A stretch of 64,000 nucleotides of DNA from an uncultured Collinsella sp. (GTDB lineage Bacteria; Actinomycetota; Coriobacteriia; Coriobacteriales; Coriobacteriaceae): positions 1-64,000 of the forward strand of contig CANNOC010000015.1 of the NCBI GenBank assembly GCA_947507155.1, read 5' to 3'. Position 1 is the first letter of the stretch; each line of letters begins with the position of its first letter. The position numbers and the translations under genes are program-made. Positions 19,091 through 52,961 of the stretch are shown one piece after another. Below the pieces are notes generated by a model. The model saw nothing but the letters and a program-made list of their open reading frames with translations, was not told the origin of the DNA and made no database searches.

Positions 19091-19159
19091 CCCAACGGGA
19101 CGCAATACATCAGCCCACCGACCCAAGCATTATGAGTGGGGCGCGTCGCTCAACGGACA

Positions 19160-19343
19160 CGAGGATTCGCAGCAAAGGCAACGTAGCTCCGGCCGGGAGG
19201 GGCAGGGCAAGTTTTCCGTAGATTCCGCACGAGCCGAAGGCCACTTAATGTGGCCTTCGTGCGAGCCCAGGACTTGACCGAGCGGAAAACTCGCCCTGCC
19301 CCTCCCGGCCGGAGCGTATGCAGGGTTTGTGTACGAATCCTCG
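19160..19343 (+). repeat. large palindromic element, copy A
   Basis: Nested inverted repeats. The outermost pair is 10 bp (19160-19169 with 19334-19343). The main arms are 22 bp and perfect (19187-19208 with 19293-19314), extended by about 10 near-paired bases. A 64-nt core (19219-19282) contains the hairpin GGCCACTTAATGTGGCC. The core is a diverged relative of copies B, C and D. It lies between the aminotransferase stop and the rplJ promoter. Confidence 0.85.
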
Positions 19344-19349
19344 CGCCCG

Positions 19350-30146: not shown

Positions 30147-30154
30147 GTGAGGAA

Positions 30155-30344
30155 CGTTGCCCCGACGAGCACGTCGGATTCCCGGAACGGGCCGCCCGCT
30201 GTTTAAGTTTGTCGCGAGTTCCGCACGCAAAGGAAAGCACTTAATGTGCTTTCCGTCTTGCGCAGGACTGTAGAGCAGCAAACTTAAACAGCGGGCGGCC
30301 CGTTCCGGGAATCTGCCCCCGCGCACAGAAGGGGGTTCCTTTTG
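30155..30344 (+). repeat. large palindromic element, copy B
   Basis: Perfect 34-bp inverted arms (30178-30211 with 30279-30312) enclose a 67-nt core (30212-30278). The core has conserved ends GAGTTCCGCACG and CAGGACTGTAGAGCAG and an inner hairpin with loop TTAAT. Flanks 30155-30180 and 30311-30344 are shared with copy C. It follows the rpoBC terminator directly. With REP copy 30344-30377 it fills the gap before the sigma-factor gene. Confidence 0.9.
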
Positions 30345-30377
30345 CCAAAAAGGGACAGGTTTATTTTGGTGGGTTTT
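30344..30377 (-). repeat. REP-like GGAC element, family 3, copy 1 (reverse)
   Basis: Contains AAAGGGACAGGTTTATTTTGG, the reverse complement of the core of copies at 32289-32326 and 47042-47083. It can fold through its CCAAAA/TTTTGG ends. Confidence 0.8.
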
Positions 30378-30466
30378 CCTGCTTGAATTTGAAACATTTC
30401 GTCCGGCCAGAGCGTATCTATGGTGAGGACCTCATCAAGAATCAGTACCGTCACCGGGAGGTGATT

Positions 30467-30985
30467 ATGGAAGAACAAACATTTAGACAGGCGGTCGAAG
30501 ATCACCGAGATGTCGTGTTTCGAATCGCATTGACGTATCTGCGCGATCGCGCCGATGCCGATGATGTTGCCCAAGATGTCTTTCTTAAGCTGCTCAAAAG
30601 CGATACGCAATTTGAGAGTTGGGAGCATCTTCGCCGCTGGCTTATCCGGGTCACGATCAATGAATGCAAATCGCTCTTTCGAAAGCCATGGAGGCGTGTG
30701 GAGGATATTGAGAACCTGGCCGATTCGCTTTCGACGGCGCAGGAGGAGACCAAGGCGGTCCTGTCAGACGTTATGCGACTTCCGGAGCGATTCCGTGTTC
30801 CCATCGTGCTCTATTACTATCTGGGCTTTTCGACCTCAGAGATTGCCGAGTTACTGCATGTGCCAGCCGCGACCGTTCGAACGCGTTTAGCTCGTGGTCG
30901 ATCGAAGCTCAAATTCATCCTAGAGGAGGGCGACCGTGAAATCCAATCAAATCAAGCAGGCCTTCGAGTCCATCCAAGCCGATAG
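30467..30985 (+). CDS. ECF-type RNA polymerase sigma factor
   Basis: A 172-residue alternative sigma factor. Region 2 is at about 10-75 (YLRDRADADDVAQDVFLKLL) and region 4 at about 105-155 (LPERFRVPIVLYYYLGFSTS, EIAELLHVPAATVRTRLARG). GGGAGGTGATT precedes the ATG at 30467. The next gene starts inside it, the usual layout of a sigma/anti-sigma pair. Codon use is more AT-rich than that of the rpo and ribosomal genes around it, consistent with a later insertion between rpoC and rpsL. Confidence 0.9.
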   Translation: MEEQTFRQAVEDHRDVVFRIALTYLRDRADADDVAQDVFLKLLKSDTQFESWEHLRRWLIRVTINECKSLFRKPWRRVEDIENLADSLSTAQEETKAVLSDVMRLPERFRVPIVLYYYLGFSTSEIAELLHVPAATVRTRLARGRSKLKFILEEGDREIQSNQAGLRVHPSR

Positions 30986-32012
30986 CGATCTTGCCGACCG
31001 TGTTATTGATGCTGCGGCTGGAAAGCCGCTTCGTCGAAAGGGTCACGCGAAACCTCTGTATGTTGCCGTAATCGGATGTCTTGCCGGAGTGTTGGCGACC
31101 GGAGGGGTCGCCTACGCCGTTGTCAATTCCAGCTATTTTGCCTCAGCCTGGGGAAACCACGGCAATGGGGATTCCATTACCTGGACCAACGGTGGCTCAT
31201 CGGGGACTAAATATACCTACACCAGAGAGTTTGGTGATGGCATCGCGCCCCAAAGCCTGGAGGGTGCAGTCCAGGAGGTTAATCTGTCCGTCGAGGGTAA
31301 CGGCTATACGCTTGATATCCATGAGATGGCTATTGACCAAAACGGCTGCGGAGCCGTGACGTTTACGTTGTCCAATCCAAATGGCGTTAACTACTACAAG
31401 CCGGCAGCAGAGACAGGCGAACTTGTTCTCTATGGTGAAGAAGAACAAGGAATCGGCACGCCCAGCATGAACTTCGGCGAGGAATGGGCTGACACACGCT
31501 GCACAATTGATAAGGACACATCAAGCGACACGGTCATTAATGGCACGATGTACTTTGCCTCGTGGGATCGCGAGCGAGATTTGGGACATGCGGTCACCTG
31601 GAATATCAGCTGGACGGAGGGCAAAGGTGAGGATGCGAAGGTGATCGAGGTATCGACGCCAGAGTTTAACGTCGGAGCGCACGTCGATATAAAGGAACTC
31701 CGCTCCGATGACTCGTCTCTTGAGATTAGCCCGTTTTCCATCCAGACGCACATCGATGATCTGGGCTATGAAGCAGTTGATCATAAACTGACCGTCAGCT
31801 ACAAGGATGGATCGGAGCAGATTATCGAAGATGACGACGCAGGGGCGTACAATTTCTATGTTTCGATGGCACGCAATAGCGGGGAGAACATTTGGGTGCC
31901 AACGAAGTTGATTGATGTCGACCAAGTGGTCTCAGTAACGCTTGAGGGCACACGCTGCACTTCAACAGGGGACGCCGAAACGTCGGAACCCTTTACCATT
32001 GTCTATTCGTAA
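30936..32012 (+). CDS. membrane anti-sigma factor-like protein (DUF4179 type)
   Basis: A 358-residue single-pass membrane protein. A short cytoplasmic N-terminus (residues 1-38) is followed by one membrane helix at about 40-63 (PLYVAVIGCLAGVLATGGVA) and a large extracytoplasmic domain with beta-strand character. GTG at 30936 follows AGAGGAGGGCGACC and overlaps the sigma-factor gene by 50 bp. By context it holds the ECF sigma factor inactive until an envelope signal is sensed. The DUF4179 assignment is from general resemblance and is less certain than the topology. Confidence 0.78.
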   Translation: MKSNQIKQAFESIQADSDLADRVIDAAAGKPLRRKGHAKPLYVAVIGCLAGVLATGGVAYAVVNSSYFASAWGNHGNGDSITWTNGGSSGTKYTYTREFGDGIAPQSLEGAVQEVNLSVEGNGYTLDIHEMAIDQNGCGAVTFTLSNPNGVNYYKPAAETGELVLYGEEEQGIGTPSMNFGEEWADTRCTIDKDTSSDTVINGTMYFASWDRERDLGHAVTWNISWTEGKGEDAKVIEVSTPEFNVGAHVDIKELRSDDSSLEISPFSIQTHIDDLGYEAVDHKLTVSYKDGSEQIIEDDDAGAYNFYVSMARNSGENIWVPTKLIDVDQVVSVTLEGTRCTSTGDAETSEPFTIVYS

Positions 32013-32018
32013 GATTTG

Positions 32019-32052
32019 GGGCCGCTTCCTACTAGGGGAAGCGGCCTCTTTT
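32019..32052 (+). terminator. terminator of the sigma/anti-sigma operon
   Basis: A 10-bp stem (32020-32029 with 32037-32046) followed by TCTTTT. Confidence 0.88.
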
Positions 32053-32092
32053 GCGTTAAATGGGCTGTTGGAGCAAGGGATATTCGTCTGAA

Positions 32093-32223
32093 TTTCGGAA
32101 GTATGCGGCAAAATCCCGATAGGCCGAACACACCGCATATGCTCAAGCGCTCTACCTGCGGGTTTGTTATCGCAAAACCTCGGCGTGCTCGGCAGGTCCA
32201 GAATTTACCGCATACTTTCGAAA
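32093..32223. repeat. nested imperfect palindrome E
   Basis: Arms 32093-32114 and 32203-32223 pair over about 21 positions with few mismatches (core GAAGTATGCGG / CCGCATACTTTC). Between them are further inverted pairs ACCTGC/GCAGGT and GGTTT/AAACC. It lies in the gene-free 32013-32694 stretch. No second copy is seen in the window. Confidence 0.65.
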
Positions 32224-32288
32224 GCGCCGCCGATTTCCATGCGACAGGTGAGAGCAGATCACCGCTGGAGCGCGACATTTTCCCAGAT

Positions 32289-32326
32289 AAAACCGACCAA
32301 AATAAACCTGTCCCTTTTTGGCAGGT
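32289..32326 (+). repeat. REP-like GGAC element, family 3, copy 2
   Basis: Forward copy of the family at 30344-30377 (reverse) and 47042-47083. The central part AAATAAACCTGTCCCTTTTT is identical to the last. Confidence 0.8.
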
Positions 32327-32328
32327 GG

Positions 32329-32518
32329 CGTTGCCCCGCCGAGCACGTCGGATTCCCGGCCCGGGCGGCGCGGGGGTTAAGTTTGTCGCGAGTTCCGCAC
32401 GAGCCGGAGGCCACTTAATGTGGCCTCCGTGCGAGCCAGGACTGTAGAGCAGCAAACTTAAAACCTGGGCCGCCCGGGCCGGGGATCCGCCCCCGCGCAC
32501 AGAAGAAGATTCCTTTTG
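32329..32518 (+). repeat. large palindromic element, copy C
   Basis: A 67-nt core (32386-32452), same length and same conserved ends as copies B and D, with an inner GGCCACTTAATGTGGCC hairpin. The arms (about 32355-32385 with 32453-32485) pair imperfectly. Both flanks are near-identical to those of copy B in direct orientation. Confidence 0.88.
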
Positions 32519-32572: not shown

Positions 32573-32601
32573 TTGACGGCACAGCTAACGCCACGTATCC
32601 T
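32573..32601 (+). promoter_or_regulatory. rpsL (str operon) promoter
   Basis: TTGACG (32573-32578), 17-base spacer, TATCCT (32596-32601), about 94 bp before the rpsL start. GGATACGCCCGG at 32549-32560 just upstream recurs before rplC and rplB. Confidence 0.7.
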
Positions 32602-38069: not shown

Positions 38070-38113
38070 CTGAGCGAGCAGGGTTAAGCAGACATCAACG
38101 TGTCGTCTCCCGA

Positions 38114-38250
38114 GCACGGCGGAGGGCCGGAGAAATATATTAAGGTCATCGCGAGTTCCGCACGCAAAGGAGAGCACTTAATGTGCTCTCCGTCTTGCGC
38201 AGGACTGTAGAGCAGGGACCTTAATATATTTCTCCGGCCCTCCGCCGTGC
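38114..38250 (+). repeat. large palindromic element, copy D
   Basis: Perfect 34-bp arms (38114-38147 with 38217-38250) with no similarity to the arms of copy B. They surround a 67-nt core (38149-38215) almost identical to that of copy B, including the GCACTTAATGTGC hairpin and the CAGGACTGTAGAGCAG end. It lies between the phosphatase stop and the rplC leader and may also end the phosphatase transcript. Confidence 0.9.
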
Positions 38251-38308
38251 CCAGGAGCCATCCACGCACTTTACCTGCGTAAACAATGTGAGTGAAATAT
38301 GAATCTCG

Positions 38309-46780: not shown

Positions 46781-46982
46781 CTGTAACAACTGGACCGTTA
46801 AAAGTGGGCTAGATGTTACAGATTGAGATACTTCCGAACCTTGCCGTCCCTTTGTCTCGATCTGTAACAGCTGGGACGGATTTTGCCGAGTTACTGTTAC
46901 AGATTGAGATTTTCCCTTGAGGGAGATTCGAATGTCTCTCTCTGTAACGGATAGACCGGAAAATGGGCTCTAACTGTTACAG
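46781..46982. repeat. three tandem hairpins with 80-bp period
   Basis: CTGTAACA/TGTTACAG hairpins, each exactly 41 bp long, lie at 46781-46821, 46862-46902 and 46942-46982 (the last with CTGTAACG). Each is followed by GATYGAGA and the loops vary. The array fills most of the 448-bp gap between two convergent operons. Confidence 0.85.
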
Positions 46983-47041
46983 ATCGAGACGTTTTGGCGC
47001 CGCGGCTGAGCTATCGTGGTGGTTTTGACGTTTGACCAGAT

Positions 47042-52905: not shown

Positions 52906-52961
52906 TTACGTTATAGCTAGCTATATTATAGGAAGGTATAATATAGCTAGCTATAACGTAA
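52906..52961. repeat. perfect AT-rich 25-bp inverted repeat before the ATPase gene
   Basis: Arms 52906-52930 and 52937-52961 are perfect reverse complements around a GGAAGG spacer. Each arm itself contains the 14-bp palindrome TATAGCTAGCTATA. A TATAAT lies at 52937-52942 and the AAAGGAGG ribosome site of the next gene begins at the end of the right arm. GC content is far below the surroundings. Confidence 0.9.

Follow-up and report, generated by a model that had tools for sequence, protein, structure and literature searches.

REP and REPIN sequences with their RAYT transposases, together with CGTC repeats, are small dispersed intergenic palindromes, often located near gene ends, that form inverted pairs and are mobilized in trans. 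A REP is defined by a GTAG or CGTC tag at one end and a palindrome of 20-40 bp (PMC3733652). MITEs and other palindromic repeats (ERIC/RU-1, YPAL/RU-2, NEMIS/Correia, BOX/RUP) are non-coding, intergenic and shorter than 200 bp, and they display presence/absence polymorphism; their transcripts would form long hairpins, and the terminal repeats of MITEs are the conserved recognition sequence. Integron attC sites are hairpins with conserved unpaired features, whose stems are conserved in structure and variable in sequence. Two other comparisons are closer in host or in mutational pattern: the Rfam motif Collinsella-1 (RF01700), a structured-RNA candidate known from Collinsella and human gut sequences, and the hairpins generated by quasipalindrome correction or template switching. 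Template switching makes and keeps perfect stems, the two arms acquiring compensatory changes simultaneously and as blocks (PMC8794818).

The hairpin family described here shares the general features listed above for REPs, MITEs and related repeats, with a mobility in trans that is putative. Contrary to REP/REPIN elements, however, its arms of 25-50 bp are nearly unique to each copy and conservation is confined to an asymmetric core inside the hairpin; neither a GTAG/CGTC tag nor a linked RAYT was found. Whereas MITE ends are conserved, these GC-rich arms vary freely and undergo concerted change. Copies did not have terminal inverted repeats in common, apart from a few shared pairs and the homologous arms of one genome (G223, see below). 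Likewise, a search of two complete genomes with the core half GCGAGTTCCGCACG yielded no autonomous version and no relative with a transposase sharing the ends: each occurrence lay at a full copy already recorded, with one exception, which was joined to another hairpin. In attC sites the conserved boxes flank the stem ends, while here they are inside. Quasipalindrome correction is a mutational mechanism and does not itself constitute an element; its substrate in the present case would be a dispersed family sharing a conserved core. The family is thus REP- or MITE-like in behaviour, yet without their defining sequence features. If mobile, it would be a hairpin element reversed with respect to MITEs and REPs, constant inside and variable outside.

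No description of the element was found in the literature, and the family matched no catalogued element found. The comparison with Rfam proposed in the first-pass annotation gave no gathering-score match to any family in the window (the whole 64,000-nucleotide stretch analysed) and none at E<=1 over the core of copy 2; Collinsella-1 was excluded since its covariance model did not match. HMP2_254 was rejected as an equivalent of copy 1 on account of its position, said to be directly upstream of rplL in Collinsella (PMC8040213).

The window contains four copies, all on the forward strand, as had been proposed from the sequence alone. The core pattern TTCCGCACG-N22..50-CAGGACT occurred exactly four times (0.01 expected), and arm pairing scores were 24-36, whereas none of 500 shuffles scored above 12. 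The copies and their surroundings are as follows.

19186..19315, forward strand: copy 1, arms 19186-19218 and 19283-19315 (97% paired); variant core GATTCC...CAGGACTTGACC, inner stem GAAGGCCAC/GTGGCCTTC with TTAAT loop
19350..19378, forward strand: putative rplJ promoter downstream of copy 1, consensus-like TTGACC-17-CATAAT (from the consensus)
30177..30313, forward strand: copy 2, perfect 35-nt arms 30177-30211 and 30279-30313 (100% paired) around 67 nt; CAAA-type core, inner stem GGAAAGCAC/GTGCTTTCC
30216..30278, forward strand: conserved core of copy 2, GAGTTCCGCACG ... CAGGACTGTAGAGCAG, folding as helix AGU(U)CC/GGACU with asymmetric internal loops and a free-sequence hairpin as cap
30345..32321, no strand assigned: cassette with an ECF sigma factor and a DUF4179 protein, between copies 2 and 3
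32349..32489, forward strand: copy 3, arms 32349-32385 and 32453-32489 (86% paired); AGCC-type core
32573..32601, forward strand: putative rpsL promoter downstream of copy 3, consensus-like TTGACG-17-TATCCT (from the consensus)
38107..38257, forward strand: copy 4, arms 38107-38147 and 38217-38257 (95% paired); CAAA-type core, GGAGAGCAC/GTGCTCTCC

Copy 1 is enclosed in a larger imperfect palindrome (about 19146-19347), and copies 2 and 3 have in common an outer conserved domain (about 30150-30344 for copy 2). The inner-stem triplets read as first annotated. A core of exactly 67 nt had been attributed to three copies; this spacing between the arms holds for copies 2 and 3. Copy 1 displays a variant core. 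Similarly, the TTAAT loop described as invariant is present in the window copies and is not universal, since CAGTGG and GAA were encountered elsewhere.

Comparison with distant copies revealed a constant part common to the whole class, organized as 5' arm - GCG - AGU(U)CC - RCA - inner hairpin - GA - GGACU - GUYUGA - GC - 3' arm. The core is thus a helix of five pairs with one bulged U, lying between two asymmetric internal loops. It stayed invariant while the inner hairpin could be as short as about 3 bp (GGC-GAA-GCC) or exceed 20 bp (L473). Part of this invariance was ascertained by the search pattern itself, a concern that is relaxed by the distant covariance-model matches. Whole elements measured about 130-190 bp, and both the outer arms and the inner stem were free in sequence with pairing kept. 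Collinsella copies displayed additional CACG/GTG-type modules, and their cores fell into three internally covarying subtypes (AGCC, CAAA and AACA). Arm similarity between most sites was at background level; a few arms were common to different sites of one genome beyond shuffles (scores of 21, 21 and 20 versus a maximum of 15).

Exact copies numbered 23 in the assembly from which the window was taken (2.22 Mb in 50 contigs), a lower bound for this genome; 16 of them are forward and 7 reverse. Exact-pattern copies were recorded in 40 of 45 genomes of the genus, typically 20-30 in each genome of the C. aerofaciens-like clade. With a covariance model built from 48 sequences, along the lines suggested in the first-pass annotation, further copies were uncovered throughout the class, in 166 of 298 sampled Coriobacteriia genomes and 60 of 125 genera. 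Among the named carriers are Collinsella, Enorma, Adlercreutzia, Gordonibacter, Ellagibacter, Slackia and Parvibacter. Among 198 sampled genomes of the phylum, one outside the class gave a match, and a weak one. In distant genomes some model matches were weak and about 95-107 nt long; they carried the family core with a tiny inner hairpin, and their assignment to a different family was rejected because the core is the same. Viral contigs gave 120 pattern matches, none with palindromic arms, and phages gave no match. The sole plasmid match was in a large C. aerofaciens replicon, probably chromosomal since it holds rpoBC and ribosomal-protein genes. Many sites were common to many strains, indicating that most copies are old. 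Several copies lay tens to a few hundred bases from contig ends (drafts G004:C58, G005:C45, G013:C2, G033:C23 and G033:C53), so that short-read assemblies may be interrupted at long palindromes and drafts may contain more copies than were counted.

The first-pass annotation had read compensated changes in the inner stem as a sign of a folded RNA or single-stranded DNA. The covariation itself is real and recurred across the class, where 30 of 38 pairs varied on both sides; in the outer arms, all 22 aligned pairs displayed changes on both sides. The covariation score reached 0.690, versus 0.199 in shuffles (attained in none of 500) and at most 0.21 in slid controls. The outcome named beforehand as speaking against the proposal, namely no further copies in related genomes or copies that do not covary, was therefore not the one observed. 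The RNA part of this reading was weakened by a second set of comparisons, in which elements were paired by their flanking DNA and not by their arms (28 site clusters, 139 comparisons). This set displayed 411 compensated pair changes against 139 single and 23 other double changes, and divergence per site was 0.119 in arms versus 0.060 in flanks. In extreme cases 12-23 pairs differed, with 0-4 single differences and nearly identical flanks; L019 and L499, one of these cases, did not differ over 199 flank bases. At site L022, genomes G001 and G002 had common flanks; they were distinguished by an 11-nt indel placed symmetrically in the two arms, by some twelve compensated substitutions and by the core subtype. 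When alignable (related) arms were considered alone, 71 compensated changes were recorded against 97 single ones, with about 7 compensated expected by chance.

Compensated changes were rich in transversions (256:155) compared to flank changes (1017:1622), a ratio inflated by unrelated arms in the flank-matched set; in the related-arm set they were still richer in transversions than flank changes (40:31). Isolated mismatches did not display a significant wobble bias, with 41 GT versus 33 AC among 93 independent copies (if every related copy is included, the counts become 94 and 66, p=0.03). Recombinant alleles composed of the left arm of one type and the right arm of another occurred at L296, L348 and L403, and copy 3 of the window, the outer arms of which are the least perfect there, looks like such a recombinant of two arm alleles. 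Since recombinants with mismatched arms persist, arm repair is not instant. Taken together, the absence of significant wobble bias, transversion-rich compensation and block changes of the arms point to concerted change at the DNA level. They favour DNA-level concerted rewriting over slow compensation at the RNA level, with selection as a possible cause as well. A functional RNA stem is normally proven by compensatory change; in this family, the arms co-change as blocks and faster than flanks. Whether selection or template switching is responsible, a long-standing question, is directly testable, as common human gut bacteria provide many natural replicates.

Presence and absence of copies between close genomes was also observed. 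Downstream of rpoC, three kinds of alleles occurred, with no element, with an element or with an unrelated hairpin. At L022, two genomes carried a copy and a third, without it, kept a short GCCCC...GGGGC hairpin, a state that may result from a deletion. More generally, the "empty" alleles could be deletions rather than pre-insertion sites: those at rpoC and L022 displayed no obvious target-site duplication, and no clean pre-insertion allele was found. Sites S14, upstream of thrB, and S6, downstream of a uvrD-like gene, were occupied by unrelated hairpins or by none, depending on species or strain. Amplification of a single arm lineage was seen in G223, where at least 15 loci displayed homologous arms in different flanks, with 38 compensated versus 19 single changes between paralogues. 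Many of these loci were nested, the core occurring two to three times along one hairpin, about 45 nt apart (L546, L549, L551, L554 and L564). At L580, another hairpin type was joined at the inner loop of a family copy. Dispersal, gain and loss, homologous arms at many loci of G223 and nesting support an element that carries its own arms, spreads and frequently lands in hairpins.

With a probability of about one half, we thus consider that these sequences form a Coriobacteriia-wide family of non-autonomous, dispersed mobile hairpins, whose arms are carried along and kept complementary by concerted change at the DNA level, and whose core is a putative recognition site. Among the roles initially listed (structured RNA, terminator or processing site, or a hairpin moved by an enzyme encoded elsewhere), the mobile hairpin fits best, owing to dispersal, gain and loss, block replacement of arms and nesting; the postulated enzyme was not found, neither the Y1_Tnp phyletic pattern nor the split-core search having yielded a candidate. 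Points against this reading are, besides the missing enzyme, the "empty" alleles that could be deletions, the age of most copies and the persistence of recombinants with mismatched arms. The conserved asymmetric core would likely be bound, as single-stranded DNA or RNA, by a trans-acting protein, and copies would spread by transposition in trans in which the whole hairpin is moved, hairpin tips being the preferred targets. Complementarity would be maintained mainly by DNA copying at the hairpin, through template switching or hairpin-primed synthesis during movement, by which one arm is rewritten from the other. More speculatively, and with clearly greater reserve, these elements may represent a new class of selfish hairpins in which only the small core is recognized. 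Such hairpins would copy into hairpin tips, those of their own kind included, and obtain their own perfect arms because each move or replication re-synthesizes one arm with the other as template; at least one family with a different core and the same architecture would share the niche.

A class-wide invariant core could equally be compatible with a cellular function, and the main rival, which we hold to be possible but rather doubtful, is a cis-acting structured RNA at operon ends: an mRNA processing site, 3'-end stabilizer or insulator, with pairing under selection and the core as a putative binding site, probably the target of RNase III or of another protein factor. Strong covariation of the stems around an invariant unpaired core is what such an RNA would display, and copies separate transcription units, many of them following a stop codon immediately or closely preceding a promoter or RBS, at sites conserved within the genus. 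In addition, 5' arms are G-rich (41% G, 28% C), so that the element is oriented; this bias is accounted for by none of the explanations considered. Yet, the wobble bias was not significant on either strand, compensated changes were transversion-rich, arm pairs were swapped as blocks with unchanged flanks, and the element was missing from the same site in close relatives. Orientation relative to neighbour genes was mixed as well, both in the window's own genome and in 37 copies of two other genomes, where every combination was encountered: (-,-) 12, (+,-) 10, (+,+) 9 and (-,+) 6. Covariation is the only one of the features expected from a structured RNA that was found.

Mobilization of REP/REPIN-type elements by an IS200/IS605-like (RAYT) tyrosine transposase is improbable. 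It would be in line with palindromes dispersed in intergenic regions, some as inverted pairs 200-280 bp apart, the bulged base in a conserved helix and the IS200/IS605 transposases of some hosts. However, alignments displayed no GTAG/CGTC terminal tag, element size is far above 20-40 bp, and no transposase gene was seen flanked by elements. Y1_Tnp was absent from carriers G108, G078 and G019 and present in G095, G106, G110 and G138, where the covariance model gave no match; its phyletic pattern was without correlation to copy number, and it was rejected as the mobilizer.

Intrinsic or bidirectional terminators, also among the roles initially suggested, are even less probable: very stable hairpins at operon 3' ends would suit them, but TTTT followed the arm in none of the 23 copies of the window's own genome (AAAA preceded it in one), a separate ordinary terminator precedes the element at rpoC, and at thrB the element lies between the hairpin of the preceding gene and the thrB RBS. 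Least probable of all is that arms are target DNA, the core being inserted and the flank copied into an inverted repeat (snap-back) or the insertion occurring in a pre-existing palindrome; arms nearly unique per site and a palindromy that sometimes extends a few bases into the flank are in its favour, while same-flank alleles with unrelated arms, which contradict both sources in the cases tested, and homologous arms at different loci of one lineage indicate that arms travel with the element.

Family copies occupied intergenic positions. Those of the window sit between transcription units, which bears out the operon-boundary location first proposed: copies 1 and 3 closely precede the apparent promoters of rplJ and rpsL, an arrangement conserved in relatives, copy 4 is upstream of rplC and copy 2 is downstream of the rpoC terminator. 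In the whole genome, 11 of the 23 copies had on their 3' side, about 50 nt from the core, the stop codon of a gene running towards the element; on this side of the remaining ones lay the start region of the next gene. No preference for a class of neighbour genes was found. Throughout a bacterial class, operons for ribosomal proteins and RNA polymerase have long palindromes next to them, which may affect assembly, replication and transcript processing.

The ECF sigma/DUF4179 cassette is bounded by the inverted sequence CCAAAAAGGGACAGGTTTATTTTGG (30345-30369 and 32297-32321). It is absent, or placed differently relative to the hairpins, in some relatives, and its sigma and DUF4179 anchors were not found at the equivalent place in close relatives L293, L301, L304 and L312. 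In C. aerofaciens TSDC17.2-1.1 (L579, 6907-8684), two genes without Pfam match lie inside an inverted element pair after manA.

Other hairpins were recorded during this study. One family, built like the main one with long paired arms but around another core, GAAAGAGGAG ... CGACGATTGA (L348 near 1421, L356 near 1420, L081 near 5906 and L101 near 7678), occupies or adjoins the same intergenic sites as the main family in some genomes. Another type, with core GTGAAACAAGG ... CGAAGTTGAACG, was found at L580 (about 1256-1500) and at site S11 in L373, L374 and L382, and is often followed by the small palindrome CCGCCGTTCGTTAGAACGGCGG. The latter also occurs inverted beside another hairpin after rpoC (L294, L298, L303, L305, L310 and L311). 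Hairpins of the GTGAAACAAGG type and those of the rpoC 3' end replace part or all of the main-family element. At site S6 in genome G014 (L350), the core is interrupted at the contig start by a sequence ending in ...CTCCACCCGCATAGCGGGTGG...AGTCTTGAA, possibly an insertion-sequence end. Finally, two palindromic sequences of the window bear no relation to the hairpin family: a perfect 25-nt A+T-rich palindrome with a 6-nt loop at 52906-52961 (TTACGTTATAGCTAGCTATATTATA), and a 61-nt inverted repeat, 72% complementary with a 15-nt spacer, at 46854-46990.
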